From the NCBI GenBank assembly GCA_944392335.1, contig CALXWJ010000037.1:1-64000 (forward strand): a stretch of 64,000 bases of DNA, in the 5' to 3' direction. A program made the position numbers and the translations under genes. The stretch comes from an uncultured Clostridia bacterium (lineage in GTDB: Bacteria; Bacillota; Clostridia; UBA1381). Shown here piece by piece: positions 14,245-60,483 of the stretch. The first letter of the stretch is position 1. Each line of letters opens with the position of its first letter. The notes beneath the pieces were generated by a model. The model did no database searches. It saw only the letters and a list, made by a program, of their open reading frames with translations, and was not told the DNA's origin.

Positions 14245-15462
14245 ATGGAGATAGCCATGGAATTTGAACAAAGGGAATTTATTCCGGTATTATTTGGAAA
14301 TGATATTAATGTTTACAGCGTAGCAAGAGCTTTTTATGAAGAATACAGAATACCATCGGTTGTTTTTGGAAAAGCCCTGATGGGGACATGCTATAAAAGC
14401 AAAATGGTAAAATTCAAGGAAATAAAAAATCTTGACGACCCTGATGTGATGTTAACACTGTTAAATGATTTTGCATTGGAAAACACGACAAAAAAAATTT
14501 TGGCGATAGGCTGCGGCGACAACTATGTTAAGTGTCTTGCCAAAAATAAAAATCAGCTGAAATCAAACATAATAGTTCCTTATGCCGATTACGATTTTCT
14601 TGAGGAATTGATGGATAAGGAAAAATTTTATAATTTATGTGAAAAATACGGCATAGATTATCCGAAAACATATATATGCACCGTAAGAGATTACGAAAAC
14701 ATAAAGCTGTTTTTTGACGCGCCTTATATTTTAAAGCCGGCAAATCAGGTCGAGTATTATAAACATAAATTTGAAGGGCAAAAAAAGGTGTTTAAATGCA
14801 ATACCAAAAAGCAGCTCAAAGATACGGTAAAAAAGATATATGACGCGGGATATACCGATAATATGATAGTTCAGGATTTTTTGCCGGGTGATGATACATA
14901 CATGAGGGTTTTAACAAGTTATTCCGATAAGCGCGGAAAGGTTAAAATGATGTGTCTTGGGCATGTGCTTTTGGAGGAGCATACCCCTTACGGTATAGGA
15001 AATCATGCTGTGATAATAACGGAATATGAAAAAGAACTGATGGAAAAATTCAAAAACTTTCTTGAAGAAATACATTTTATCGGTTTTTCCAATTTTGATA
15101 TAAAATATGATACCCGTGACAATAAATTTAAAGTGTTTGAAATCAATACAAGACAGGGCAGAAGCAATTTTTATGTGACCGGTTCGGGACATAATATTGC
15201 CAAATTGCTCGTTGAGGATTATATATACAATAATGACCTTGAAGAGGATATTGCAAAGAATGAATATTTATGGATGGTTGTGCCTAAGGGCGTCGCGTTT
15301 AAGTATGCTCCTGAATACAAAGACAGGATGAAGCGTATTATCAAGGAAAAACATTATGTTAATCCGCTTTATTTTGCGCCGGATAATGATATTGAAAGAA
15401 AATACAGGCTGCTCAGATCACAGCTGGGGCACTATGTAAAATTCAAAAGGTATTATAAATAG
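14245..15462 (+). CDS. ATP-grasp D-aspartate ligase homologue (Asl-type)
   Basis: A 405-residue ATP-grasp enzyme. Blocks typical of the Enterococcus faecium D-aspartate ligase family are visible along the whole length: EFIPVLFGNDINVYSVARAF, then KKILAIGCGDNY, YILKPANQVEYYKHKFEG, VQDFLPGDDTYMRVL, MMCLGH, GFSNFDIKYD and FEINTRQGRSNFYVTG. The last blocks carry the Asp/Glu/Asn that bind Mg2+ in ATP-grasp enzymes. The family attaches D-Asp to the side-chain amine of residue 3 of the peptidoglycan stem as the cross-bridge. Next to an aspartate racemase and a MurE ligase, this role is well supported by context. The start is ambiguous: ATG 14245 or ATG 14257. Confidence 0.85.
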   Translation: MEIAMEFEQREFIPVLFGNDINVYSVARAFYEEYRIPSVVFGKALMGTCYKSKMVKFKEIKNLDDPDVMLTLLNDFALENTTKKILAIGCGDNYVKCLAKNKNQLKSNIIVPYADYDFLEELMDKEKFYNLCEKYGIDYPKTYICTVRDYENIKLFFDAPYILKPANQVEYYKHKFEGQKKVFKCNTKKQLKDTVKKIYDAGYTDNMIVQDFLPGDDTYMRVLTSYSDKRGKVKMMCLGHVLLEEHTPYGIGNHAVIITEYEKELMEKFKNFLEEIHFIGFSNFDIKYDTRDNKFKVFEINTRQGRSNFYVTGSGHNIAKLLVEDYIYNNDLEEDIAKNEYLWMVVPKGVAFKYAPEYKDRMKRIIKEKHYVNPLYFAPDNDIERKYRLLRSQLGHYVKFKRYYK

Positions 15463-15571: not shown

Positions 15572-16273
15572 ATGGGTAAATTAGGCGTTATCGGAGGAAT
15601 GGGCCCTTTGGCGACTCAGCTTTTATACAGGAAAATAATTGATAAAACAGACGCAAAACGCGATCAGGATCATATTGACATGATCATATTAAGTCATGCA
15701 AGCGTGCCTGACAGAACCGCCGCGATAAAAAGCGGGCATACAAGCAAGGTTTTTCACGCGCTTTTGACAGACGCGCTGATGCTTGAGAAAAACGGGGCGG
15801 ACGCGATCGCGATCCCGTGTAATACATCGCATTTTTTCTGGGAGCCGCTGCAGGCGGAGCTTGAAATCCCTATAGTCAATATGGTAAGGGAAACCGCGAA
15901 AAGAATGAAAAAAATGAACCCGGATATTAAAAGGGCTGGGCTTTTGGCAACAGACGGAACGATTTATACCGGAACATATGCACATGAATGTGAAAAATTG
16001 GGTTATGAATGTATAAATCCGGATGAAGAAACACAAAGGATCGTTATGGACATTATTTATAATCAAATAAAAGTCGGTGAAAAAGGCAATATGGAGGATT
16101 TTTTGAAGATAGAAAATTATCTGAAAAGTGCAGGCTGTGAAGCAGCTATATTGGCATGCACCGAATTTTCCTGTTTCAGGGAAAACCATAAATTAAGTGA
16201 TTTTTATATCGATTCCTTGGATGTGCTATGTGAAGAATCGATATTGCTGTGCGGAGGCAAGCTGAAAAAATAA
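15572..16273 (+). CDS. Aspartate/glutamate racemase family protein
   Basis: A 233-residue PLP-independent racemase. GVIGGMGPLAT is the conserved N-terminus; the two catalytic cysteines lie in IPCNTSHFFW (~residue 85) and LACTEFSCF (~residue 192). The GGMGP and CNTSH form is that of aspartate racemases more than MurI. It would supply D-Asp for the neighbouring ligase; in E. faecium the ligase and racemase genes are likewise adjacent. AGAAAGGATG precedes the ATG; the 109-base gap to the ligase gene has no terminator. Confidence 0.88.
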   Translation: MGKLGVIGGMGPLATQLLYRKIIDKTDAKRDQDHIDMIILSHASVPDRTAAIKSGHTSKVFHALLTDALMLEKNGADAIAIPCNTSHFFWEPLQAELEIPIVNMVRETAKRMKKMNPDIKRAGLLATDGTIYTGTYAHECEKLGYECINPDEETQRIVMDIIYNQIKVGEKGNMEDFLKIENYLKSAGCEAAILACTEFSCFRENHKLSDFYIDSLDVLCEESILLCGGKLKK

Positions 16274-16310: not shown

Positions 16311-18665
16311 ATGATTTACAAAATTAATGACTATATTGAATTATTGAAGAAAAATAACCTTTTAAAAGAGACTGACGCCGTAAATGAGACTCAGATTGAA
16401 AATGTCACCTATAATTCAAAGCAGGTTGGAAAAAATACATTATTTATATGTAAGGGAGCACATTTTAAAGACGAATATCTTAAAGAAGCAATAAAAAACG
16501 GTGCAGTGTGTTATGTGGCACAAAAAAGTTATGATGTCGACGGGGGTCGCATTATTGTAAGCGACATAAGACGCGCGATGGCTTTATTGTTTAATATGTA
16601 TTATGACAATGTGTGGAAAAAACTGCATTTGATCGGAATAACCGGGACCAAGGGCAAGTCAACGACAACATATTTTATAAAATATATTCTTGATGAATAT
16701 CTGAAAAGTATAAAAAAACCGGGCAGCGCATATATTTCATCAATTGATACTTATGACGGAGCGGATAAATTTGAATCTCATCTGACAACCCCGGAAGTGG
16801 GAGAATTGATGATGCATTTTAACAATGCGGTCAATTCTGGTATTGAATATCTTACTATGGAGGTTTCCTCGCAGGCCTTAAAATATGACAGGGTTTACGG
16901 CGTCGGTTTTGAAGTTGGAGTATATCTGAACATAGGAGAAGATCATATAAGTGACATTGAGCATCCGGATTTTGATGATTATTTTCATTCAAAAATGAAG
17001 ATATTCAATCATTCAAAAACTGCTTGTGTATCTCTTGATACATTAAGAAAAGAAGAGGTGTTGGAGGCAGCGCGGGTTTGCAAAAGGGTAATAACATTTT
17101 CATCGGAGGATGAGAATGCCGATATTTATGCATATGATGTAAGAAAGGTCGGAAATGATACGGTATTTGATGTAAGGACGCCTGAATATACCGAAACGTT
17201 TACCCTGACTATTCCCGGACTGTTTAATGTTCAGAACGCTTTGGCGGCAATTGCCGTTTGTTATGCTTTGAATATACCTAAGCATTTTGTGTATGTCGGG
17301 CTTATGAAGGCGCGTTCTTCTGGAAGAATGGAAATATATTCAAATTCTGATAATAAGGTAATAGCCATCGTAGATTATGCACATAACAAAATGAGCTTTC
17401 AAAGTCTTTATGATTCGGTTTTAAAAGAATTCCCTAACCGAAGAATAGTAACTGTTTTCGGATGCCCGGGCAAAAAGGCATTTCAGCGACGAAAGGATCT
17501 GGGTGAACTTTCGGGAAAATATTCCGATATGGTATATATAACGGAAGAAGATCCCGGAGAAGAACCTTTGATTGATATTTGCAATGAAATTGCGGGTTTT
17601 GTCAAATCGGCGGGCGGGAATTATGAGATCGAGACCAATCGGGGAGAGGCAATTAAAAAAGCTGTTTTTACTTCGGACAGGGATTCGGTGATCCTAATAA
17701 CCGGAAAAGGAAATGAAACGAGACAAAAACGAGGTACAGAATATATAAACTGCTCGAGTGATGTTGAGTATACAAAAAAATACTTAAAGGAATTCGATGT
17801 ATCAAAAAAAATTGACGCTTCCGAAACCATAAGCACGATCCAGCGTATGCTGCCCGCATTTCGGAAGCTCTATTCAAAAACCATATTAATAAAACTGGGC
17901 GGCAGCATTTTGGAGGATAATTCTCTTATTGAAAACATTTATGAGGATGTCGCGTTGCTTACAATGGTAGGAGCAAGAGTTATTATTGTTCACGGCGGAG
18001 GGAAAAATATTTCGAAAAGTCTCGGTATAAATAACATAAAAGCGGAATTTATCGGAGGATACCGTGTTACTACAAGTGAGGCTGTTGAAATAGTTGAACA
18101 GGTATTGTCGGGCGGCGTAAATAAAAAAATTGTTCAGGGTTTAAAAAATGAGAAACTGAATGCATGCGGAATTTCGGGAAAAGACGCAGGGTTGATCACG
18201 GCAAGAAAAAAGATTATATCCGAGGGGGATATAGGATTTGTGGGTGAGGTTGAAAAGGTTGACACAAAAATCCTTGAATTACTGATCGAAAACGGATATA
18301 TTCCGGTGATATCACCCGTCTCAGCTTCGGAAAACGGTGATACGTTAAATATAAATGCCGACGATGCCGCATTTGCGGTTGCAGAGGCGTTAAAGGCCGA
18401 TACGCTGGTATTTCTTACCGATGTTGACGGCATATTGCTTGATATTGCAAACAATAAAACAATTATTAATAATATTACTTTGGAAAAAGGCAGAGAGCTG
18501 CTTAAAAACGGATTTATCGGAGGAGGAATGCTTCCGAAGCTTAAAAACTGTATAAATTCGGTGGAAAACGGCGTTAATGAAGTCGCGATCATAAACGGCA
18601 GGGAAAAATATAACCTTGTATCTTATTTTATAACAAAAAATAAGATAGGAACAACAATAAAATAA
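16311..18665 (+). CDS. MurE-type Mur ligase fused to an N-acetylglutamate kinase domain
   Basis: A 784-residue fusion in one uninterrupted frame. Residues ~1-505 are a MurE ligase: N-terminal UDP-binding domain (VTYNSKQV), P-loop GTKGKSTTT (112-120), TMEVSSQAL, and the C-terminal domain with IVDYAHN and GCPGKKAFQRR. The specificity loop reads EEDPGEE (412-418) instead of the DNPR of diaminopimelate-adding enzymes, which points to a non-DAP residue such as Lys or Orn. Residues ~524-784 are an ArgB-like amino-acid kinase: IKLGGS (K528), VIIVHGGGKNIS, IGGYRVTTSEAVEIV, GISGKDAG, LTDVDGILLD and GGMLPKLKNC. Both halves keep key residues. MurE is normally ~480-500 residues alone, so the kinase is an added domain. 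Co-linear with D-Asp ligase and racemase genes. How the kinase half contributes is unknown. Confidence 0.88.
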   Translation: MIYKINDYIELLKKNNLLKETDAVNETQIENVTYNSKQVGKNTLFICKGAHFKDEYLKEAIKNGAVCYVAQKSYDVDGGRIIVSDIRRAMALLFNMYYDNVWKKLHLIGITGTKGKSTTTYFIKYILDEYLKSIKKPGSAYISSIDTYDGADKFESHLTTPEVGELMMHFNNAVNSGIEYLTMEVSSQALKYDRVYGVGFEVGVYLNIGEDHISDIEHPDFDDYFHSKMKIFNHSKTACVSLDTLRKEEVLEAARVCKRVITFSSEDENADIYAYDVRKVGNDTVFDVRTPEYTETFTLTIPGLFNVQNALAAIAVCYALNIPKHFVYVGLMKARSSGRMEIYSNSDNKVIAIVDYAHNKMSFQSLYDSVLKEFPNRRIVTVFGCPGKKAFQRRKDLGELSGKYSDMVYITEEDPGEEPLIDICNEIAGFVKSAGGNYEIETNRGEAIKKAVFTSDRDSVILITGKGNETRQKRGTEYINCSSDVEYTKKYLKEFDVSKKIDASETISTIQRMLPAFRKLYSKTILIKLGGSILEDNSLIENIYEDVALLTMVGARVIIVHGGGKNISKSLGINNIKAEFIGGYRVTTSEAVEIVEQVLSGGVNKKIVQGLKNEKLNACGISGKDAGLITARKKIISEGDIGFVGEVEKVDTKILELLIENGYIPVISPVSASENGDTLNINADDAAFAVAEALKADTLVFLTDVDGILLDIANNKTIINNITLEKGRELLKNGFIGGGMLPKLKNCINSVENGVNEVAIINGREKYNLVSYFITKNKIGTTIK

Positions 18666-40774: not shown

Positions 40775-42060
40775 ATGAAACACAAATTAAGAATAGCAAT
40801 GTTGGTCGTATCTATTTTGCTTATGATACTGCCGACCGGGATATTTGCCTCCGACACGGCGGCTGAAGCCGATCTGGTTATCACTACAGCGGAGGAGCTG
40901 GCGGCGTTCAGGGATGATGTTAACAGCGGAAATCATTATATAGGAATGACGGTCGTGCTTGCGGCGGATATCGATCTTGAAGAGAGCGGTGTAAATACGT
41001 GGCAGCCGATAGGCATAAACAGCAATTATGCTTTTGCGGCGTATTTGACGGCGGCGGGCATGAAATAAGCGGAATGAACGCGAATAACGGGGGTTTATTC
41101 GGTTATCTGGGTGCAAATATCAATTGGAGCAATAAATTCGGAGAAATCAGAAACCTCGGCGTTTCGGGGACAGTTTCGGGAGGCGCTAACAGGGGCGGAA
41201 TAGTTGCCCGGATCAATTTCGGCACAGTGGAAAATTGTTACAGCAACTGCAGCGTTACCGGTTCAACGAATGGAACAGGCGGAGTTGCCGGCTACAGCGG
41301 AAGTGACGGTTCGGTGATCGGCTGCTATAATATGGGCAGTGTTACAGGCAGCGGAAACGTAGGCGGCATTGTGGGTCAAGGCTACGGAGTGATAGAAAAT
41401 TGCTATAATATGGGCAATGTCAAAGGAACGGGCAGCAACATAGGCGGAATTGTCGGGAATGGTTCTACAATAACGAATTGCTACAGCACAGGCTCTGTAA
41501 CCGGAGGAACTTCTGTGGGAGGAGCTGTGGGAAAGACCAGCGGAACGGTTATAGCTTGTTATTACCTATCCGACGGCAGTATGACAGATTCATATGCAGT
41601 TGCCCTGACGGCAGACCAAATGAAGCTGCAATCCTCATATGAAGGCTTTGATTTTGAGACGGTATGGGGAATCGATGAGGGTATAAATAACGGATTCCCA
41701 TATCTGCGTTCATTTGTGGCAACCGAGCCGGTCGGAGAAATGACCGCGCAGGTCACATCCGAGCCTGTCTATGACAGTGAAAGCGGTTCATATAAAATCA
41801 ACGTTTCTGCCGATAATGGTACAAGTGCTGCCGTTACCACAAATGTTTTTGTTGCTACATATGACGAGGACGGAAGGATGACGGGCGTTTATATGCAGGC
41901 TTTGACCGGGCTTGAGCCTGGAGCGGCATTTGATATACCAGCCGAGATAACCGCAGAGCAAACGGCTTTTGAAATCAAAATTATCTGTATGGGTGAAGAT
42001 ATGATCCCCGATATGAGTGAATCGGTATCATACACACTTAACGGCAGCTCGATGCAGTGA
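40775..42060 (+). pseudogene. Secreted GLUG-repeat protein, broken by a one-base frameshift
   Basis: ATG 40775 starts a good signal peptide (LMILPTGIFAS). The first frame runs NSNYAF and then leaves frame to stop at 41068; the second frame picks up at once as CGVFDGGGHEISGM and continues to 42060. The homologous AFCGNFDADGHEI in the gene at 43266 shows that the two frames belong together and that one T is missing in the TTTT run at 41032-41035. Downstream are about five GLUG-type repeats (GGIVGxGxxIxNCYxxGSVTG) and a C-terminal beta-domain with VFVATYDEDGRMTGVYMQAL. GLUG repeats occur in surface and adhesin-like proteins. No anchor is seen. A sequencing error is not excluded. Confidence 0.75.
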
Positions 42061-42124
42061 TATAAAAAGCTTCGGGAAGGTTTTATATCCTGTAATACAG
42101 AAAAAAATAAAGGATGTAGTGTTT

Positions 42125-43033
42125 ATGAAGCGAAGATCATATGCTATAATTCTGATCATATGCCTTTTGTCAGCGTTGATGCCTACTGGGATTTTTGCAT
42201 CCGACGCGGCTAATGAAGCCGATTTGGTGATCAATACGGCGGAGGATTTGGAGGAATTCCGTGACAGTGTCAACAGCGGTGCGGATTACAGCGGCAAGAC
42301 CGTAATACTCGGCGCGGATATTGATCTGGGCGGAAGCCAATATGACACATGGAAGCCGATAGGAACCGAAGCATCGAATTATTTTAATGGTGTATTTGAC
42401 GGCTGCGGACATAGGATCAGCGGAATATATCTCAAAGGATCATTCAGTGCAACAGCGGCTTTCTTTATGGGTATCGGCGAGGATGGCGTCGTTAAAAACC
42501 TTATTGCCAAGGGTACAGCGCTTGCGGCAGAAACCGCAGAAAATAAAAGCGGCGGAGGTATTGCGGCGGAAAACTACGGTATAATAGAAAACTGCCTGAG
42601 CGATATTTTGATCAGCGTTAATGTACTGAATAAGGTTGTATATGTAGGCGGAATTGTCGGTACCAACAGCGGGATTGTCAGAAATTGCTGCCAGGTTAAT
42701 TATATTTATAATGCTTACGATCCGATCAATATCGGCGGGATTGTCGGCAGGAACGTAGGCTCGGGCATTATAGAAAATTGCTATTATAACAGCGGAAGAC
42801 GCGGCAGCAATCAGCTTGAGGGCGCAGAGGGAAAAACCACAGAGCAGATGAAATCCGGAGAGGTCGCCTATCTGCTCCGGGCAGGTCAGGATGAGCAGCA
42901 GACAGGGACTCCTATGTGGGGACAGAACATACTGACCGACCCTAAGGATGAGTTCCCCGTGCCGACATATGATACAACAAAAGATGTATGTAAAGTCAGC
43001 TTTATAGTAAACGGCGAAGAGTATGCGGCATAA
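42125..43033 (+). pseudogene. 5' part of a GLUG/SLH surface-protein gene, ended by an in-frame TAA
   Basis: ATG 42125 (AAAGGATG upstream) encodes a signal peptide (LMPTGIFAS) nearly identical in layout to the gene at 40775, so the two are tandem paralogues. GLUG-type repeats follow (VGGIVGTNSGIVRNC, IGGIVGRNVGSGIIENCYY). The frame stops at TAA 43031-43033 after EEYAA, but the same frame continues with YTNYGGNVTLPEPPS, matching FTNINSTVSLPEEPE in the gene below, so TAA is probably a nonsense change. The open frame then reaches an AAAA run at 43226-43229, where one extra A shifts it out of the downstream frame. This and the next entry were therefore probably one gene of about 1,490 codons. Confidence 0.75.
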
Positions 43034-43265: not shown

Positions 43266-46200
43266 GTGGAATTTACAGACAACTATGATAAAGCGGGTCG
43301 GTTTGTTTTTGAGGCGAAAGATCCTCTTCCGGCGGAGATTACGCTTGACGGCAGCAGGGTCGTATGGAGTCCGACAGACGATACCCAGGATCGGATCGAC
43401 GTAACATTCACCGTTACTGACATTGATCCCTATATCCCGGCTGTAAGCTCAAACAGCCTGTCAGCGGCTGTAGGCTCGGCCGAACTTACTGTTACATTTG
43501 TAAAGACGCCTGATTTATCGGAGTATTTTAAAAAGGACGAAACAGACCCATACGGCAATACCTATCTTATACAAAACAAAGAGGAGCTGACTCTTCTTGC
43601 CGAAGGCGTCAATTACGGCGTGCCTACAACAGGGATCACATTTATCCAAACGGCGGATATAGACCTGGGCGGCAGTGAGGAAAATATATGGACGCCGATA
43701 GGTTCTTATGATTATCAATTCCAAGGAACCTTTGACGGCGGCGGATATGAGATAAGCGGTCTTTACACAGACGGAAGATTTTGGCAGGGTCTGTTCGGAT
43801 ATACAGGCGAACTTGCCGTCCTTCGCAATATCAGCGTTTTGGGCTCTGTTGCGGGTGATTCCGGCGTCGGAGGAATAGTGGACTGGAATTTGGGAAGGGT
43901 CGAAAATTGCACAAACGCGTCTTCTGTCTGGTCAAGCGGCGCGGCCTGCGGGGGAATAACAGGCTACAATGAAGGCTCGGTAACAGACTGTCGCAATATC
44001 GGAGATATTACCGGGGATAACAGTCATGTCGGCGGGATCGTCGGTCAAAACCTCGGCAAATCAGTTACAAATTGCCGCAATGACGGATCGGTCACAAGCA
44101 ACGCGTCGACCACAAGCAATGCAGGCGGGATAGTCGGCAGAAGTGCGCAGGGTTCCATAGTCAACTGCTGCAATACAGGCAGGATATACGGACGCAATCA
44201 GGCGGGCGGAGTGGTAGGCTCTGCACAGAACTGCACTGTTGCGCGCTGCTATAATATCGGCAGCGTTGAAGGCTCTGTGGTAGTCGGCGGTGTGAGCGGC
44301 AATAACAGCGAAAATGTTCGGATCGAGGATTGCTATAATGCCGGAGCGGTCAACGCCTACATGGGGATTGGCGGCGTGGCAGGATATATTTCGGACGGCA
44401 ATGCCATTGTTAACTGTTACAATGCTGCTGTCCTGACGGCTGTCGAGGACGATGATATCGTCGTGGTAAATACGGGGAGCGATCCCGAGGAACCGGTTGA
44501 TCCCACATACAGATACATGGGAAGCATAGCGGGAATGATTGAACGTTCCGCTTTGATACAAAGCTGTTTTTACAACCAAGAGATCGCATCATCACAAGAG
44601 GAAAATGGGATCGGCGATGTGACGGGGATCACAACGGCGGAATCTGCCGATCAAAGCATATTTGAGGCTGCAGGATGGGATTTTAACGACGTTTGGATGA
44701 TAGGGATATTTGTGGACAGACCTGTCCTTCGTGACATCCCGGAGGACGGCGAAGGCTCGGAGCAGTTTGCCTATCTCATACCTGACCTTGAAACTCTCGA
44801 GAAATTCAGGGAAATGGTAAACGGCGGACGATCGTTTGAAAATGAGTATATCAAGCTTACAAATGATATTGATATCGGAGCAAATGATGAAAATCAATGG
44901 ATACCTATCGGTGCGGACGAAGCAAATGCCTTTTGCGGAAATTTTGACGCGGACGGTCATGAAATAATTGGTCTGTACATAAATGACGCCGACTCTGCCG
45001 CGGCGGGTCTGTTTGGTTATGTCGCCGAAGGCGGCAGGGTTGAAAATCTTGGTGTTGCGGGAATTGTCACGGGCGGCGATCTTGTCGGTGGTGTAACCGC
45101 ATATAACAAAGGAATATTGTCGAATTGCCACAGCTTGGTTTCCGTTTCGGGAGTCACCGACGTCGGAGGGTTGACCGGGCGAAATTCGGGCACTGTGGAA
45201 AATTGTTATAATACAGGCTCTGCCGAAGGCACACAAAATATCGGAGGCATAACCGGAAATAACGAAAGTACAGGGATGGTCGCAAACTGTTATAATACAG
45301 GTGCTGTCACAGGTGAAAGCAATGTCGCAGATTTGGTCGGATTAAAATCAGGCTTGATTAAAAACAGCTACTTTCTCGCAGAGGAGGAGACCGAAGCGCA
45401 AAATGGTGAGACGGGTAAAACGCAGACGCAGTTTGAATCGGGCGAAGTTGCATATCTTCTTCAGCAGGGACAGACATACGACGGCTCGGGAACAATTATT
45501 CAAGTATGGGGACAGGAAATTACAAATGAACCTAAAGATATTTTTCCGTTACTGACAGACGATCCGGAAAAGACGGTGCTTCGGGTAACGTTCATGGTAG
45601 AAGACAGCGTGTATGCGCAAAGGTTTACCAACATAAATTCCACCGTCAGTTTGCCTGAGGAGCCGGAATTAGGAAGAGGCTTTGATAAGTGGTCTCTGAC
45701 AAACAGCCGCGACGGTATAAAGTTCACATCGGACACCCCTGTGACAGAGGATATTACGGTCTATGCTATTGAACGCAGGAGATCAGGCGGTTCCTTGATA
45801 TCGGCAACGACATATTATACCGTGACCTTTGACACACTCGGAGGCAGTGAGATAAGCAGTCTGCGTGTGGCGAAAAATACAACTGCAGACATGCCGCAGT
45901 CGCCTGTCAGAGAGGGATATGTTTTTGACGGCTGGTATACCGATAAAGAATGTACTGAAAATTATGACTTTAATACCCCGGTGACAGAAAATATTACTCT
46001 TTATGCAAAATGGACTCAAGAATCCTCAGAGATTGAAGAACCGTCCGGATGGGAAAATCCGTTTACCGACGTCGATGAGAGTGACTGGTACTACGGCGCT
46101 GTGCAGTATGCGGAGCAAAACGGATTGTTTAACGGCATTACGGAAGATACCTTTGCGCCGAATATGGCTATTACAAGAGGTATGCTGGTCACAGTTCTCT

Positions 46201-46598
46201 GGAGGATCGAAAACGAACCGGTAGTAAATTATTTAATGACCTTTGAAGATGTTGACGAGGCTGAATATTACGGCGAGGCGGTACGCTGGGCGGCAAGTGA
46301 GAAGATCGTCAGGGGCTATTCCGAAACCGAATTTGCACCCGAACGCCTGATTACACGTGAAGAAATGGCAGCGATAATAAACCGCTATGCGGAATTTAAA
46401 GGTATCGGGTCGGACGCAAGCGGAGATCTTTCGCAGTTTGAAGATGAGTCTTTGATCTCCGACTGGGCAAGAAATAATGTCTCCTGGGCAGTGGGCGAGG
46501 GAATTCTCGCAGGCAAGGGCGACGGCATGCTTGACCCGCAGGGCAATACCACACGTGCACAAGCAGCGCTGATATTGCAGCGCTTGTTGGAGCAATAA
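43266..46598 (+). CDS. GLUG-repeat surface protein with InlB-type repeat and three SLH domains (probable 3' part of a broken gene)
   Basis: A 1,110-residue open frame without its own signal peptide; the coding sense extends upstream to about 43230 (AGNTAEIDLYDY). Order: an Ig/cadherin-like part (~1-80), two blocks of GLUG repeats each opened by a DIDLGG/WTPIG unit (~110-480 and ~500-720), an InlB/Listeria-Bacteroides repeat (VTFDTLGGSEISSL to TLYAKW, ~851-918), and three S-layer homology domains (~931-1110, with FTDVDESDWY, FEDVDEAEYYGEAVRW, NNVSWAVGEG). SLH domains bind secondary wall polymers, so it would be cell-wall attached. GTG 43266 has no ribosome site, which supports a broken 5' end. 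Confidence 0.8.
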   Translation: MEFTDNYDKAGRFVFEAKDPLPAEITLDGSRVVWSPTDDTQDRIDVTFTVTDIDPYIPAVSSNSLSAAVGSAELTVTFVKTPDLSEYFKKDETDPYGNTYLIQNKEELTLLAEGVNYGVPTTGITFIQTADIDLGGSEENIWTPIGSYDYQFQGTFDGGGYEISGLYTDGRFWQGLFGYTGELAVLRNISVLGSVAGDSGVGGIVDWNLGRVENCTNASSVWSSGAACGGITGYNEGSVTDCRNIGDITGDNSHVGGIVGQNLGKSVTNCRNDGSVTSNASTTSNAGGIVGRSAQGSIVNCCNTGRIYGRNQAGGVVGSAQNCTVARCYNIGSVEGSVVVGGVSGNNSENVRIEDCYNAGAVNAYMGIGGVAGYISDGNAIVNCYNAAVLTAVEDDDIVVVNTGSDPEEPVDPTYRYMGSIAGMIERSALIQSCFYNQEIASSQEENGIGDVTGITTAESADQSIFEAAGWDFNDVWMIGIFVDRPVLRDIPEDGEGSEQFAYLIPDLETLEKFREMVNGGRSFENEYIKLTNDIDIGANDENQWIPIGADEANAFCGNFDADGHEIIGLYINDADSAAAGLFGYVAEGGRVENLGVAGIVTGGDLVGGVTAYNKGILSNCHSLVSVSGVTDVGGLTGRNSGTVENCYNTGSAEGTQNIGGITGNNESTGMVANCYNTGAVTGESNVADLVGLKSGLIKNSYFLAEEETEAQNGETGKTQTQFESGEVAYLLQQGQTYDGSGTIIQVWGQEITNEPKDIFPLLTDDPEKTVLRVTFMVEDSVYAQRFTNINSTVSLPEEPELGRGFDKWSLTNSRDGIKFTSDTPVTEDITVYAIERRRSGGSLISATTYYTVTFDTLGGSEISSLRVAKNTTADMPQSPVREGYVFDGWYTDKECTENYDFNTPVTENITLYAKWTQESSEIEEPSGWENPFTDVDESDWYYGAVQYAEQNGLFNGITEDTFAPNMAITRGMLVTVLWRIENEPVVNYLMTFEDVDEAEYYGEAVRWAASEKIVRGYSETEFAPERLITREEMAAIINRYAEFKGIGSDASGDLSQFEDESLISDWARNNVSWAVGEGILAGKGDGMLDPQGNTTRAQAALILQRLLEQ

Positions 46599-53428: not shown

Positions 53429-54436
53429 ATGGAAGCTATAGAACAGAGTAAAATTTTCAGAAGAAAGCTATATAACGGATATGAAATTCCCTGTATCGGA
53501 ATGGGGACTTTCGGAAGCGATCATTTTTCAAATGATGATATCGCATCGGCTGTTGAGGGGGCTGCAAGGCTGGGATACAGATTATTCGACTGCGCCTCTG
53601 TATACGGTAATGAGGACCTGATAGGCATTTCGCTAAAAAGGATCATGGACAGCGGAATAAAAAGGGAAGAGCTGTTTATTCAGTCAAAGGTATGGAATGA
53701 TAAGCATGACGACGTAATAAATTCATGCAAGAAATCTCTTAAGGATTTAGGGCTTGATTATCTTGACACATATTTCGTTCACTGGCCCTTCCCCAATTAC
53801 CATGCACCGGGCTGCAGTGTTGACAGCCGTGCTGAGGACGCGACTCCCTATATACATGAAAAATTCATGAACACATGGGCACAGATGGAAGAATTGGTAG
53901 ATATGGGACTGGTAAGATCGATAGGAACGTCAAATGTAACGATACCAAAATTAAAATTGATCTTAAGGGATTGCAGGATAAAGCCCGCGATCAATGAGAT
54001 GGAGCTTCATCCATCCTTCCAGCAGCCTGAGCTGTTTGATTTTTGCTTGGAAAACGGTATTCAGCCTATCGGTTTTTGCCCGTTGGGTTCGCCTACAAGA
54101 CCGGACAGAGATAAAAGCCCGGATGATGTTGCTGATATGAAGATGCCGGAAATCGTAGAGCTTGCAAAAAAACATAATGTACATCCGGCGATCATTTGTC
54201 TGAAATGGGCTGTGCAAAGAGGTCAGATACCTATTCCGTTTTCGATCCATGAAAGCGAATATTACAGTAATCTTCTTTCTGTTACACAAGACCCCTTAAC
54301 AGATGATGAAATGAAAATCATGAAATCGGTAGATAAAAACTGCAGATTTATAAAGGGACATGTATTTTTGTGGAAGGGCGCAAAAGACTGGCGCGATCTG
54401 TGGGATTTGGACGGAACCATTACAAAGGTCAAATAA
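53429..54436 (+). CDS. Aldo/keto reductase
   Basis: A 335-residue AKR barrel. The catalytic tetrad is seen as Asp and Tyr in FDCASVYGNE, Lys in FIQSKVWN, and His in YFVHWPFPN. SIGTSNVTIPKL and NEMELHPSFQQPEL are family blocks, and the C-terminal NADPH loop is PIPFSIHESEYYSNL. It would reduce an aldose to an alditol, or the reverse. ATG 53429 is preferred, with GAGGGG upstream, over the ORF start at 53399 that overlaps the dehydrogenase end. It precedes the secreted protein gene by 32 bases without a terminator. Confidence 0.9.
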   Translation: MEAIEQSKIFRRKLYNGYEIPCIGMGTFGSDHFSNDDIASAVEGAARLGYRLFDCASVYGNEDLIGISLKRIMDSGIKREELFIQSKVWNDKHDDVINSCKKSLKDLGLDYLDTYFVHWPFPNYHAPGCSVDSRAEDATPYIHEKFMNTWAQMEELVDMGLVRSIGTSNVTIPKLKLILRDCRIKPAINEMELHPSFQQPELFDFCLENGIQPIGFCPLGSPTRPDRDKSPDDVADMKMPEIVELAKKHNVHPAIICLKWAVQRGQIPIPFSIHESEYYSNLLSVTQDPLTDDEMKIMKSVDKNCRFIKGHVFLWKGAKDWRDLWDLDGTITKVK

Positions 54437-54468
54437 TAAAAAAATTGAAATTCGGAAAGAGGCGATGG

Positions 54469-57456
54469 ATGTTGATTAAAATTATAACAAAATGTACTGC
54501 GCTGACAGCGGCAGCGGCTATGTTGTCCGTACTTATTCCGCAGGGTATATCAGCAGCGGCCGATATTGTCTATACACAATATGATATGACATCTATATAT
54601 AATACGGGCAATATATATACAAGCAGACAAGGCGCCCAGGGAAATGCCGGATACGCGGGAGCATTTGATTACGACTCGTTTATAGGAGATTCCTATAATA
54701 CCTGGCAGAATGAATGGGAATCCGGCATGACGGACAATGTTTTAACGATAGGCGATATACCTTTTGCCATGAGAGTTATAGATCACGGCGACTGGATGGT
54801 GAACACACCGTGTGTATGGTGGAATACGGGATATAATACCCCGTATACAAATTTTGATATTGAGGATAGTTATTATACATCACTTGAAATACTTGCAAAT
54901 TCAGATAGGCCCACACAACCGCAGCTTACTGTAAGGCTCAATTATGCGGACGGGTCAGTGGAGGCATATAACTATACTCTTGCATACTTTTTCAACGGCT
55001 TCGGGGATGCCGAAGACGGAATAGAGTCCCCTGACTGCACGATGGACATGAACGGATATGTGGGACATTTCAGCGTGAGCGTTGACCCTTTGAAGATTCT
55101 TGAAAGCTTTGACATTGTGAATGACAGATTTAATCTCACGTCAGGTTCGGACGGGCAGCCGGTAAAAAATGAAAATGGACAATATACCGCAAACGAAGAA
55201 GCAGTGTCAAACAGAGGAAGATATTCACACACCGCGGCAGTTTATGCCATGACATTGGTGCAGGATGAAGAACAGATAGAACAAGCTCAAAATGAAAAGA
55301 TCGAAAAGGAGATCGAAGAGATTGAAAACGCCATCGACAGTCTTGGGGAAATATCGGAATTGACCTATGACAGAAAAGATGAGGTAGACAGGATCACAGA
55401 GCTTTTGGAAACAGCAGAACAGGACGGAATAGATGCAGAGACACAGATTTCAAATTATTCAAAGTATCTTGAAGCGGTCGAGAGGATGAATCAGCTGTAT
55501 GAGCAGCAGGTCTACACATCAATTATAGACGCCATCGACGGTCTCGGAAATATTGCCGATCTGACATACGATCAAAAGGATGACGTAGATAACATAACAA
55601 AGCTGATACAAGAGGCAAATGCCGCGGGATATACAGTCACTGAGGAAACAGTTCCAAATTATTCCAATTATCTTGAAGCGGTGGAAAAAATCAATGAATT
55701 GTATGCTGAGACGGTATATAAGGAAATAGAAGACGCGATCGCCGCGTTGGGAGATGTGGATGAGATCACATATGAGGACAAAGAAAAGGTAGATCACATA
55801 ACAGCGCTTATAGAAAACGCGCAGGCGCAAGGCTTGAATATATCTGAAGAGACCGTTAAAAATTATCCGGACTATGTTCAGGCAAAAAACACGATAAAAG
55901 GTCTTACATCAGTATCGATAACCGTTGATATGTCGCAAATGTATAATCAGGGAACGATCTATACAAGTGTAAATCAATTGGGAAGCGCCGGATATGCAGG
56001 ATCGATCTATTATCCTTATTTTATAAGCAGTGAATATCATGACTGGAAAAAACCATGGAGTGAAGGTATGCAGACAAATACCATGACTGTAGACGGAATA
56101 GATTTTCTGTTTAAAGTAGTTGATTTCGGAGATTATGAAGATTCCACAAGCTGTGTATTCTGGAATACCAATGCAGACAGTGCATACACAAATGTCGACA
56201 TAGAAGACAATTATTATACATATGTTAACATTATGGCAAATAACGACAGGCCGATAAATAACTCCAAGTTAGCCGTAAGGCTTAATTATGAGGACGGAAG
56301 CGAACAGGTGTATGAGTATGGTCAGGCATATATTTTCAACGGTTTCGGCGAAAGCGGCAGTGGTATAACGGTGAATATGATAAATAATACCGGTTCAACA
56401 GCGGAAACAGGATATATAACCCGCTACAGGATACCTGTTGATCAGGATAAAAGGCTTGTAAGCTATGATATTTTAAACGAAAGCTATGAATTTGTAAAGG
56501 ATGATTCCGGGAATTATATCCTTGACGATAACGGGAAAGTCCAGACGAAAGCATCCCCATATTCGGGAAGAGATAATTATACTTATGCCACTGCGGTATA
56601 TTCTATGACATTGGAAATGCTTTACAGGGATTATGAAGTAATGATCGAAAAGGTCATAAATGAGCTGGAAAACGAGCTGACCTTGAGAATGGAAGTTGTT
56701 GATAACAGACCGGTGAGCATTACCGATACCGGAAAGCAGACATACTGGGAGCTTGATAATTATATCCAAATGCTCGGAGATTACGATAATGTCGGCGAGC
56801 TTGAAAACTACAGCATGTTAAAAGAGGTAATGCCTGTTTATGATGGCTCGGGAGTTGAGGTAAAATATGACAATGTTATCATAAGCATGGATTTTGATAA
56901 GGAAATGAAAGATCCCGAAGGTCTTGTAACTGTGACAAGAAACGGAGAAAACGTCCAGAACTTTATAACAAAAACCGAGGGAAACAGTGTTTTTGTATCG
57001 ATCCAAAATGATTTTGACACCGATGCGAAATATGATTTGAGGATTTCTTCAAATGCGGCTTCGATCTACGGGGATACATTCACTCTCGAAAGCGACGCGG
57101 TATTTTCATTTACCATCCCTCAGACAAATATAATAACCGACTTTAAGATAGTCGGCAGTGACGGAAATGAGATCACCGATATGAGTACATACACAGGCAG
57201 CGAAATAACCGTAACGGGAGAGCTTAAAAATGTTTCGGTATCGGAAGGACAGCAATATTTAATTTTGGTTTGTCTTTATAACAACGCGGGACAGCTTATC
57301 GATATGGATAGGATATACGGTGATTTGCCAATGGGCGCGGCCGCTGATATAAACAAAACGCTTACAACTGATGGCAATAGTGGATGCAGCTTGATTGCAT
57401 ATTCACTTGATGACATACTTACAATGAGAACGATCTATAAAACCATAATAAAATAA
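54469..57456 (+). CDS. Secreted modular protein P1: two aromatic modules, FIVAR-like helical repeats, Ig-like and C-terminal domains
   Basis: A 995-residue secreted protein. Signal peptide 1-31 (LTAAAAMLSVLIPQGISAAA). Residues ~32-265 and ~482-719 are two copies of a module with (Y)NxGxIYTS, NAGYAGAFDY, VIDHGDW, CVWWN, DIEDSYYTSLEILANSDRP and AVYAMTL. Between them are three ~68-residue FIVAR-like helical units, each with LTYDxKDxVDxIT and NYSxYLEAVExxNxLY. Later come an SbsA/Ig-like domain (~787-884: ISMDFDKEM, YDLRISSNA, YGDTFTLES) and the shared C-terminal domain (~884-995, LILVCLYNNAGQLIDM). No anchor motif. It is co-directional with, and only 32 bases after, the reductase gene, so it probably belongs to the sugar operon. 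ATG 54469 follows AAAGAGG; the module has no known function. Confidence 0.82.
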   Translation: MLIKIITKCTALTAAAAMLSVLIPQGISAAADIVYTQYDMTSIYNTGNIYTSRQGAQGNAGYAGAFDYDSFIGDSYNTWQNEWESGMTDNVLTIGDIPFAMRVIDHGDWMVNTPCVWWNTGYNTPYTNFDIEDSYYTSLEILANSDRPTQPQLTVRLNYADGSVEAYNYTLAYFFNGFGDAEDGIESPDCTMDMNGYVGHFSVSVDPLKILESFDIVNDRFNLTSGSDGQPVKNENGQYTANEEAVSNRGRYSHTAAVYAMTLVQDEEQIEQAQNEKIEKEIEEIENAIDSLGEISELTYDRKDEVDRITELLETAEQDGIDAETQISNYSKYLEAVERMNQLYEQQVYTSIIDAIDGLGNIADLTYDQKDDVDNITKLIQEANAAGYTVTEETVPNYSNYLEAVEKINELYAETVYKEIEDAIAALGDVDEITYEDKEKVDHITALIENAQAQGLNISEETVKNYPDYVQAKNTIKGLTSVSITVDMSQMYNQGTIYTSVNQLGSAGYAGSIYYPYFISSEYHDWKKPWSEGMQTNTMTVDGIDFLFKVVDFGDYEDSTSCVFWNTNADSAYTNVDIEDNYYTYVNIMANNDRPINNSKLAVRLNYEDGSEQVYEYGQAYIFNGFGESGSGITVNMINNTGSTAETGYITRYRIPVDQDKRLVSYDILNESYEFVKDDSGNYILDDNGKVQTKASPYSGRDNYTYATAVYSMTLEMLYRDYEVMIEKVINELENELTLRMEVVDNRPVSITDTGKQTYWELDNYIQMLGDYDNVGELENYSMLKEVMPVYDGSGVEVKYDNVIISMDFDKEMKDPEGLVTVTRNGENVQNFITKTEGNSVFVSIQNDFDTDAKYDLRISSNAASIYGDTFTLESDAVFSFTIPQTNIITDFKIVGSDGNEITDMSTYTGSEITVTGELKNVSVSEGQQYLILVCLYNNAGQLIDMDRIYGDLPMGAAADINKTLTTDGNSGCSLIAYSLDDILTMRTIYKTIIK

Positions 57457-57483
57457 TTTGTACCTTATGCGCTGCAATATAAC

Positions 57484-57622
57484 TGCGCTAAAGCTGTCCG
57501 CCGCTTTACGGCGGCGGGCTCCATAGCTGTAATCAGTGAAAGAGTAAAATCTCTCTCTGATTGCATCTATGCCATAGAGCGCTCTTGTCTTTGCTGAATA
57601 ACGGGGCAGGCCCTTATTGTAC
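57484..57622 (+). repeat. Structured mobile element, copy 5
   Basis: Begins TGCGCTAAAGCTGTCC after AATATAAC and ends TTATTGTAC. P2 is CCGCCG with CGGCGG, P3 TGTAATCAG with CTGATTGCA (wobble), and the last hairpin is CTTGTCT.../GGGCAGG, weaker than in other copies. It lacks the GGGCGATTC palindrome. It occupies the P1-P2 intergenic region, starting 27 bases after the P1 stop. Confidence 0.78.
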
Positions 57623-57738
57623 GCATTTAAATATTAAAGTAAATAACGTTTAAATATTTTGCTTCAGGTATGAAGTTATATAATATTTTACGTTACAATT
57701 TATGCCGTCTGCAATAGGCGGCAGAACGGAGGATTTTT

Positions 57739-60483
57739 ATGAAAAAGGTATTGTCATGTATTATTGCAGGCTCAATGCTTGCGGCGTGTGTGAACTTGCC
57801 GATATCGGCACAGGAACAAAACGAAGATCCGATAAGCAGTATTATTGATCTGTCGGGAGTGTATAATCAGCACGGTATTTATTCAAGTGTGGAAAATGAA
57901 ACAGGAAGCATCGGTAATGCGGGAGCTTTTGATTATGACGCATTTTTGAATGACATTGCATGGGAAGCTCCATGGGATGACGGACAAACAGATAATACTC
58001 TCATATTGGACGGCGTACGGTTTGAAATGCGTGTGATCGACCATGGTGCATGGGAGAATAAGGAATCTTGTGTATGGTGGAATAACGGGGCAGGATCATA
58101 TACAAATTTTGACGTTGAGGATAACATTTATTCTTCCCTTGACATTTTAGCAAACGCGTATGCCGGAGAACGTCCGTATCTATCGGTAAAGCTTAATTAT
58201 TCCGACGGGTCGATACAGGAGGAAACAATAAGAGTATATTTTGTATACCATAATTACGGAGAAACGGGACCTGTAATAAGAGCAAAGCTGACAGATGCGG
58301 CAGCAGGCGACGGAGGATATGCGTATATAGGAAAATATTCCATACCGGTAGACTCTTCAAAAACGCTGATAAGCGTTGATATTGCAAATGATAACTACAA
58401 GCCGGAGGGAACAGAGCTTGAGTATAATGCGCCGGTAGCCGTATACGCGATGACGCTGACTCAGACAAGAGAAGTCTATAACGAAACGGTCCTTTCGGTA
58501 ATAGAGGATAAAATAAATGCTCTGCCCGCCGATATCACATATGAAAACAAAGCGCAGGTAGATGAAATAACAAAACTGATAACCGATGCGCAAGCCAACG
58601 GTATAGATGTTGCCGGTGAGCTTTCAAATTATTCGGTATATCTTGACGTGGTAGAAACGGTGGAAAAATTAACACCCGTATACAACATTATTGATATGTC
58701 AAGCGTATATAATCAGCATGGTATATATTCAAAGACAGCAAATGATACCGGAAGCATAGGCGGCGAAGCTGCTTTTGATTATAACGCATTTATAAGCGAC
58801 GGCACTGTTGCATGGAAAAGCGCGTGGACGGATGATCAGACAGTAAACACACTTACATTGGATGGTGTGGAATTTGATTTAAAGGTAATAGATCATAATT
58901 CATGGCAGAATAAGGAATCCTGTGTATGGTGGAATAACGCACAGGAGGATTATGTAAATTTTGATGTTGAAGACGGATATTATACATCATATGAAATTCT
59001 TGCAAATGCATATGATCTTGTTCGGCCGTATCTGTCAGTAAAGCTCAATTATGAGGGCGGAACAGTTTCTGAAGAAACGGTACAATTGTATTATGTATTC
59101 CATAACTACGGAGAAAGGGGCCCTGTGATCAGAGCAAAACTGACAAATGCAACAGCGGGTGACGGAGGTTACGCATATATAGGAAAGTATTCTATTCCCG
59201 TTGATCCTTCAAAGAAACTTATAAGTATAGATATTGCAAGTGATAAATATAAACCGGAGGATACACAAGACGAATATAACGCTCATGCGGCGATCTATGC
59301 CATGACGTTGGTACAGACCAAGGAAATGGCAGACAGGCTGATCATTACCGCAATAGAGGACGCGATCGACAGCCTGCCGATGAATATCACATATGAAAAC
59401 AAAGCACAGGTCGATGCGATAACAGAAATGATCGAAGCTGCCGAAGCGCAGGGCATTAATGTAGCCGAAGAGGCATACAACTACTCAAGATACACATTTG
59501 CGGTAAACAGAGTTGACGGTTTAACCCCTGTCAGCATGATCGTGGATATGTCCGGTATATACAATCAGCACGGTATATATTCAAGTGCGGAAAATGATAC
59601 CGGAAGTGTAGGCAACGAGGTCGCTTTCGATTATAATTATTTTAAAAATCCTGACAATATCCCATGGAACAGCGCGTGGGAGGATGCACAGATAGACAAT
59701 ACGCTTACTCTTGGCGGCGTTGAGTTTGATATGCGTGTGATCGACCACAACGGATGGACTAACAGCACTCCGGATGTATGGTGGAATAATGCCCAGGAGG
59801 ATTATATAAATTTTGATGTTGACGACGGTTATTATACATCATATGAAATCCTTGCAAACGCATATGATCTTGTTCGTCCGTATCTGTCAATAAAACTTAA
59901 TTATGATGATAACTCGACGACAGAAGAAATAATACAGCTGTATTTTGCACATCACAATTACGCAGAGACCAATAACCCCGTAATTAGGACAAAACTGACA
60001 AACGCAACAGCAGGTGACGGAGGATACGCATATATAGGAAAGTATTCTATCCCCGTAGATCCTACAAAGAAATTGGTAAGTATAGATATTGCAAGCGATA
60101 AATATAAGCCGGAAGAGACACAAGACGAATATAACGCTCATGCAGCTATCTATGCCATGACGCTTATGACAACAAAATCAATGCTCGAAGAAGAAAAGGA
60201 TCCTTATACCTTTGAAAACGCGTCGATGAATTATGACGGGGGCAATGTTACCGTGACCGGAACGCTTACAAAAAATGCCGACGTTGATTATGAGGGCGTA
60301 TTGGTAATAGCAATAGAGGACAGCAATGGAAAGGTACTCGATATCAAAGCGGTTACGCCTTCGGGAGAAGAAACAAGTGTGTCGGAGAGTTTTGCGGCGG
60401 ATGAAAATTGCAGGGTATATTATTATATCTGGGAATCGTTTGATAATATGAGACCTGTATGTAATAAAACAGAAATAAAGTAA
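57739..60483 (+). CDS. Secreted modular protein P2: three aromatic modules alternating with FIVAR-like units
   Basis: A 914-residue protein with a signal peptide (KKVLSCIIAGSMLAAC). LAAC fits a lipobox and would make it a lipoprotein; cleavage at ISA-Q by signal peptidase I is the alternative. Three copies of the module seen in P1 lie at ~31-244, ~314-529 and ~599-811, each with YNQHGIYS, TGSxGxxxAFDY, CVWWNN (DVWWNN in the third), FDVEDxYYTS, RPYLSVKLNY and GDGGYAYIGKYSIPVD. Two ~68-residue helical units (ITYENKAQVDxIT) separate them. The last ~95 residues are the shared C-terminal domain (VLVIAIEDSNGKVLDIKA, YYYIWESFDNMRPV). GGAGG precedes the ATG. Likely a polysaccharide-binding protein, by inference. 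Confidence 0.82.
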   Translation: MKKVLSCIIAGSMLAACVNLPISAQEQNEDPISSIIDLSGVYNQHGIYSSVENETGSIGNAGAFDYDAFLNDIAWEAPWDDGQTDNTLILDGVRFEMRVIDHGAWENKESCVWWNNGAGSYTNFDVEDNIYSSLDILANAYAGERPYLSVKLNYSDGSIQEETIRVYFVYHNYGETGPVIRAKLTDAAAGDGGYAYIGKYSIPVDSSKTLISVDIANDNYKPEGTELEYNAPVAVYAMTLTQTREVYNETVLSVIEDKINALPADITYENKAQVDEITKLITDAQANGIDVAGELSNYSVYLDVVETVEKLTPVYNIIDMSSVYNQHGIYSKTANDTGSIGGEAAFDYNAFISDGTVAWKSAWTDDQTVNTLTLDGVEFDLKVIDHNSWQNKESCVWWNNAQEDYVNFDVEDGYYTSYEILANAYDLVRPYLSVKLNYEGGTVSEETVQLYYVFHNYGERGPVIRAKLTNATAGDGGYAYIGKYSIPVDPSKKLISIDIASDKYKPEDTQDEYNAHAAIYAMTLVQTKEMADRLIITAIEDAIDSLPMNITYENKAQVDAITEMIEAAEAQGINVAEEAYNYSRYTFAVNRVDGLTPVSMIVDMSGIYNQHGIYSSAENDTGSVGNEVAFDYNYFKNPDNIPWNSAWEDAQIDNTLTLGGVEFDMRVIDHNGWTNSTPDVWWNNAQEDYINFDVDDGYYTSYEILANAYDLVRPYLSIKLNYDDNSTTEEIIQLYFAHHNYAETNNPVIRTKLTNATAGDGGYAYIGKYSIPVDPTKKLVSIDIASDKYKPEETQDEYNAHAAIYAMTLMTTKSMLEEEKDPYTFENASMNYDGGNVTVTGTLTKNADVDYEGVLVIAIEDSNGKVLDIKAVTPSGEETSVSESFAADENCRVYYYIWESFDNMRPVCNKTEIK

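Follow-up and report, generated by a model that had tools for sequence, protein, structure and literature searches.

A single open reading frame of 784 amino acids encodes a MurE-type ligase and, behind it, an N-acetylglutamate kinase (NAGK) that is complete. It lies at positions 16311–18665 (+) of the window, by which we mean the whole 64,000-nucleotide stretch of Clostridia DNA that was analyzed. The fusion gene is the third and closing gene of a cassette, in which it is preceded by an ATP-grasp ligase and a racemase (Table 1). Herein, we describe the evidence that the fusion is real, that its MurE half is not of the diaminopimelate (DAP) type, and that its kinase half has kept its catalytic residues and lost most of the arginine site of its stand-alone relatives.

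Table 1 Coordinates of the cassette genes and of features within the fusion protein
Feature	Position in the window	Strand	Basis
ATP-grasp ligase, D-aspartate-ligase (Asl) like, first cassette gene	14245..15462	+	predicted fold, lactobacillar homology, conserved place in many Clostridia
Aspartate/glutamate-type racemase, second cassette gene	15572..16273	+	TIGR00035, 216 bits vs cut-off 93
MurE-type Mur ligase domain, aa 1-495	16311..17795	+	Pfam, TIGR01085; predicted fold matches MurE structures
TEEDPG, aa 411-416, non-DAP form of the diaminopimelate-binding DNPR motif	17541..17558	+	alignment of 54 Mur ligases
N-acetylglutamate kinase domain (aa 501-784), stop included	17811..18665	+	TIGR00761; ~40% identity to solved NAGKs, TM (target) 0.9
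NAGK N-helix, aa 503-518, join to MurE; conserved Tyr replaced by Ala516	17817..17864	+	predicted helix 503-518; residue counts
C-terminal stretch, aa 758-784, part of the arginine site in ArgB; degenerate (A759, Y772, K778)	18582..18662	+	column counts, fused vs stand-alone

The fusion gene and its spread

Pfam assigns Mur_ligase_M and Mur_ligase_C to the 784-amino-acid protein, and then AA_kinase at residues 523–762. The same protein scores 290.5 bits against the NCBIfam model murE (TIGR01085, curated cut-off 257.3) and 234.7 bits against argB (TIGR00761, curated cut-off 151.3), and thus belongs to both families. The P-loop and the Mur motifs are aligned in the MurE half, as in a member of the MurE family. 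The predicted model of the protein matches MurE structures and NAGK structures, with a mean pLDDT of 89 and both domains confident; its pTM of 0.58 means that the orientation of the domains to each other is not fixed. Selection is purifying on both halves (dN/dS 0.04–0.12, with dS near saturation). The initial annotation of this DNA had described a MurE–NAGK fusion in one frame, and the open frame, the two curated cut-offs, and the relatives described below bear this out; every sequence motif that it had quoted from the two halves was found present.

The junction was read through without an in-frame stop at 17 loci besides the window, two of them near-identical (L174 and L175), which gives an uninterrupted fusion in 18 genomes that span two lineages of gut Clostridia. 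Since these 17 other loci carry the uninterrupted frame, the fusion is not an assembly artefact, and assembly error was ruled out as its source. An 18th other locus, L012 (1895–4227), has a frame change within the MurE–kinase linker; this copy is either split into separate MurE and kinase proteins or the result of a sequence error or misassembly. How widely the fusion occurs, a check that had been proposed at the outset, can be given in numbers: within the window's own family, nine genomes have relatives with the fusion, some of them cut into pieces by contig ends; in its order, the fusion is carried by 9 of 95 genomes, and in a second family by 13 of 150 sampled genomes. Both families gave matches over the full length of the protein.

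A search of open papers, to which most subscription journals do not belong, gave no description of a MurE–NAGK fusion, and none had been known to the initial annotation either. There are precedents for each half joined to another enzyme, namely a MurE–MurF fusion (8f5d) and the bifunctional NAGS/K of Maricaulis and Xanthomonas (PMC3236213, PMC1865377). In both, the partners catalyze adjoining steps of the same pathway, whereas the partner in MurE–NAGK comes from a different pathway.

The cassette and a second MurE in the genome

The ATP-grasp ligase that opens the cassette has a predicted ATP-grasp fold (pLDDT 91.5), which in the PDB is matched best by amino-acid ligases and PylC. It shows 37–42% identity, over 96–99% of its length, to lactobacillar homologues, one of which adjoins an amino acid racemase and one asnB. 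Its fold and neighborhood make it a candidate D-aspartate ligase (Asl), its homology being to these uncharacterized lactobacillar proteins. The racemase keeps its two catalytic cysteines, Cys83 and Cys196, across relatives and passes the TIGR00035 cut-off, as a RacD should; it also exceeds the cut-off of the cysteate racemase CuyB, so that aspartate is a putative substrate.

Many Clostridia have the trio of ATP-grasp ligase, racemase, and MurE in conserved form, and in most of them the MurE has no kinase attached. On a contig from Coriobacteriia (L039, 3072–9315), the order is murF, ATP-grasp ligase, murE (non-DAP), murD, and murG, that is, inside a mur cluster. Lactic acid bacteria form the D-Asp cross-bridge with the products of such a pair of ligase and racemase genes, and the D-Asp is amidated by AsnH (PMC4155827). 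At L029, L031, L036, L037, L038, and L052, an asparagine synthase gene separates the MurE of the cassette from the ligase. Such a gene beside MurE and the ligase is what would be expected if D-Asp is amidated, as by AsnH (PMC4155827), and these loci are likely a D-Asp amidation variant. The aslA–racD genes of lactic acid bacteria (Aslfm of Enterococcus faecium) likewise combine an ATP-grasp ligase and a racemase in one operon, and the likeness extends to the asparagine synthase near some relatives and to the ligase homologues in Latilactobacillus and L. crispatus (PMC4155827). The cassette described here differs in that it adds a dedicated MurE, which may carry a kinase, and has a ligase that is known from sequence, at the 37–42% identity given above. 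Because of the fold and homology of the ligase, the racemase and asnB neighbors, the mur cluster of L039, and the parallel in lactic acid bacteria, we assign the cassette with good confidence to peptidoglycan cross-bridge synthesis.

In an alignment of 54 Mur ligases, all cassette MurEs were without DNPR, while the canonical dcw MurEs carry it. With TEEDPG in its place, the fusion does not have the signature of a DAP-adding MurE, and the earlier view that it is not of the DAP type was correct. The genome from which the window comes has a second, ordinary MurE with DNPR (DAP-type), separate from the cassette, in the gene order spoVD-like penicillin-binding protein, murE, murF, mraY, ftsW/spoVE-like, and murG, the names having been assigned by reading the sequences. 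In raw counts over 21 genomes, uncontrolled for kinship, SpoIVA was present in 15 genomes with both MurEs. In four others (G078, G080, G081, and G082), the cassette MurE was the sole long MurE found, and all four were without SpoIVA; the MurE count in G080 is uncertain, since one of its contigs ends in a further, short stretch that resembles murE. The exceptions were G079 and the incomplete G053, with two MurEs and without SpoIVA. This pattern fits a DAP spore cortex combined with a non-DAP vegetative wall, a split that is known from Lysinibacillus sphaericus. A tandem pair of cassette-type MurE genes was observed in a Clostridiales contig (L040, 5980–9055).

The TEED-G pocket does not differ between fused and unfused cassette MurEs, and no sequence marker is known to us by which an ornithine-adding MurE could be told from a lysine-adding one. 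Since the two groups have the same pocket, ornithine and lysine are not readable from the sequence, and telling them apart by a MurE motif was rejected. Lysine synthesis does not decide between the two either: the fused genomes do not lack lysA, which is clear in the window's own lineage and is found, itself or as a close homologue, in most second-family fused genomes. No analysis of wall composition was found in the open literature for any carrier, and nothing usable on the walls of Anaerovorax or Monoglobus. A MurE tree built by a quick method divides the fused MurEs between two clades, one of which has MurEs without a kinase nested inside it. In the second family, the kinase domain thus seems, from the sequences, to have been lost several times with no visible change in MurE.

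The L-lysine-adding MurE of S. aureus (4c12/4c13) shares the fold and the Mur motifs and is likewise without the arginine of DNPR (PMC3829189). It has DNPA where the fusion has TEEDPG, and the fusion differs further by its kinase domain and by the second MurE in its genome. S. aureus MurE picks lysine largely via the amino acid pool, in which lysine is abundant (PMC3829189).

A kinase half that has lost the arginine site

In a tree of 62 kinases, including three reference NAGKs, the fused kinases form a single, long-branched clade with a support of 100/100, apart from the stand-alone ArgBs and from the three references. The simplest reading of these sequences is that the fusion may have arisen once. 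Lys528, HGGG, Arg585, Asn680, Asn682, Asp684, and Lys743, which serve catalysis and substrate binding, are invariant in 21 of 21 fused kinases, and the earlier statement that both halves keep their catalytic motifs holds. The ArgBs of T. maritima (2bty) and P. aeruginosa (2buf) have the same full kinase domain, N-helix, and catalytic and substrate residues; the fused kinase differs from them in being joined to MurE, in forming its own clade, and in the loss of the arginine-site residues.

The extent of this loss is evident from the residue counts. Out of four arginine-site residues, the 21 fused kinases keep a mean of 0.29, versus 3.66 in 38 stand-alone ArgBs. The tyrosine of the N-helix (38/38 in the stand-alone ArgBs), the glycine (37/38), and the C-terminal histidine (26/38) occur in none of the 21 fused kinases, and the glutamate in 6/21 versus 38/38. 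The N-helix itself is present; in NAGKs that respond to arginine, it joins dimers into a hexamer by interlacing them (PMC3329491). With most arginine-site residues lost, the protein does not conform to an arginine-inhibited NAGK. The mutations H268N and G287D are reported to relieve arginine inhibition of the NAGK of C. glutamicum (PMC10464499, PMC6962107). The histidine and glycine counted here are spaced by 19, as are H268 and G287, to which they are probably equivalent, judging by this spacing. The sequences suggest that the fused kinase is an ArgB paralogue freed from arginine feedback. The initial annotation had also considered the kinase half as an arginine sensor; the near-total loss of the four residues in the fused kinases, against their retention in stand-alone ArgBs, does not support such a role.

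Whether a separate argB exists had been proposed as a further check, and one was found: the genome of the window has argD, argF, argC, and argB in one run, with an ordinary ArgB apart from the fusion. This argB, the DNPR MurE, and the ligase and racemase genes beside the fusion had escaped the initial annotation. A stand-alone ArgB occurs in all nine first-lineage fused genomes and in 12 of 13 of the second family, for which the fused kinase is therefore excluded as the sole NAGK of the cell. In G146 (L166, L200), a genome of 1.6 Mb that may be incomplete, no ArgB-family match other than the fused kinase exceeds the cut-off. G237 (L201, L213), which has a kinase-less cassette MurE, has two different stand-alone ArgBs, one of them in an apparent full arg operon. 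The window's own genome has no ArgJ. Among the carriers, ArgJ is absent from G000, G054, G006, and G057 and present in others, which means that they do not all share one route to ornithine. The candidate for the deacetylation step in the own genome is one M20 amidohydrolase.

A possible role for the fusion

We propose, with roughly even confidence, that the fusion is a second MurE, for the vegetative wall, which adds L-ornithine (or L-lysine) in a wall with a D-Asp cross-bridge, and that its arginine-insensitive NAGK half supplies the ornithine. The racemase would make D-Asp, and the MurE half would extend UDP-MurNAc-L-Ala-D-Glu by a basic diamino acid, L-Orn or L-Lys in place of DAP. The ATP-grasp ligase would then put D-Asp on the side-chain amine of that diamino acid, giving an A4-type wall. 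Precursors with DAP would come from the DNPR MurE encoded elsewhere in the genome and plausibly serve the spore cortex. The kinase half would phosphorylate N-acetylglutamate without arginine feedback; even with arginine in excess and the ordinary ArgB inhibited, it would keep ornithine flowing to the wall. Being one chain, kinase and MurE would be produced in equal number. Since S. aureus MurE selects via the pool, supply can decide which residue is added (PMC3829189), and if the cassette MurEs are similarly permissive, a steadier or higher ornithine pool would decide the third residue.

The link to ornithine supply, drawn already in the initial annotation, is still the best reading of the kinase half; ornithine at position 3, the D-Asp bridge, and the kinase activity are what we infer. 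Several points speak against the proposal. The MurE pocket does not favor ornithine over lysine, carriers have lysA, the own genome is without ArgJ, the kinase domain seems to have been lost repeatedly with MurE visibly unchanged, and the SpoIVA pattern is uncorrected for kinship and has an exception. The product of the kinase still needs ArgC and ArgD, so that there is no direct channel to MurE, and kinase-less relatives do without the fused kinase, which is a weak point. If the proposal is true, wall chemistry is set by the MurE pocket plus a feedback-free supply enzyme that is part of the same protein. The proposal leads one to expect walls with ornithine and D-Asp in particular gut Clostridia, among them the window's own lineage and the second, broad family, and it makes testable how ornithine-walled cells keep making ornithine under abundant arginine. 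The identity of the third residue affects the recognition of the wall by host receptors and lytic enzymes.

Most cassette MurEs have the same pocket without any kinase, and all nine fused genomes of the first family and 12 of 13 of the second have kept a separate ArgB. Both facts would also suit a MurE half that adds L-lysine, with the kinase kept as a regulator or scaffold and its output secondary, which we consider unlikely. In this explanation, the binding of N-acetylglutamate or ATP, or hexamers formed through the N-helix, would couple MurE activity or assembly to nitrogen status; the N-helix is retained while the arginine contacts are gone, and it has a role in hexamers (PMC3329491). However, a mere scaffold would not need the catalytic residues that are invariant in 21 kinases, and arginine, the usual signal, is the very ligand whose site was lost.

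A changed substrate is somewhat less probable still. The kinase would then act on another N-acyl amino acid, possibly on the D-Glu carboxylate of UDP-MurNAc-L-Ala-D-Glu or on another wall precursor, to form an activated intermediate. UDP-MurNAc-L-Ala-D-Glu is itself an N-acyl glutamate, and the distinct, long-branched clade has fixed changes around the substrate site: Tyr584 precedes the substrate arginine in 21/21 fused kinases (Leu in ArgB), Ser follows KxGG in 21/21 (Asn in ArgB), and Lys or Arg follows HGGG in 20/21 (Pro in ArgB). Yet some of these positions vary in the true NAGKs of T. maritima and P. aeruginosa too (His or Met for Leu, Ser for Asn), the arginine, both asparagines, the aspartate, and both lysines of the acetylglutamate and ATP sites are retained, and the cassette is without a partner enzyme for such a phosphate. 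The more specific form, in which the fused kinase works next to the MurE site and phosphorylates a carboxylate, either that of UDP-MurNAc-L-Ala-D-Glu or that of a precursor with D-Asp, is improbable; if true, precursor phosphorylation would be a new activation step in wall synthesis.

That the cassette makes a non-wall peptide, as a secondary metabolite or storage peptide, from Mur-ligase, ATP-grasp, and racemase parts is very improbable: Mur ligases and ATP-grasp enzymes do also make peptides that are not part of the wall (PMC2922099) and the cassette of the window lies outside the mur cluster, but ligase and MurE are within one in L039, four genomes have no other long MurE that was found, and the genes around the cassette at the various loci include no recurring transporter or tailoring gene.

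Elsewhere in the window, a 1110-amino-acid protein (43266–46598) has GLUG repeats, a Listeria-Bacteroides repeat, and three S-layer homology domains, and is adjoined by two further GLUG proteins (40999–43033). Two large proteins of 1028 and 914 amino acids, without a confident Pfam match, are encoded at 54370–60483.
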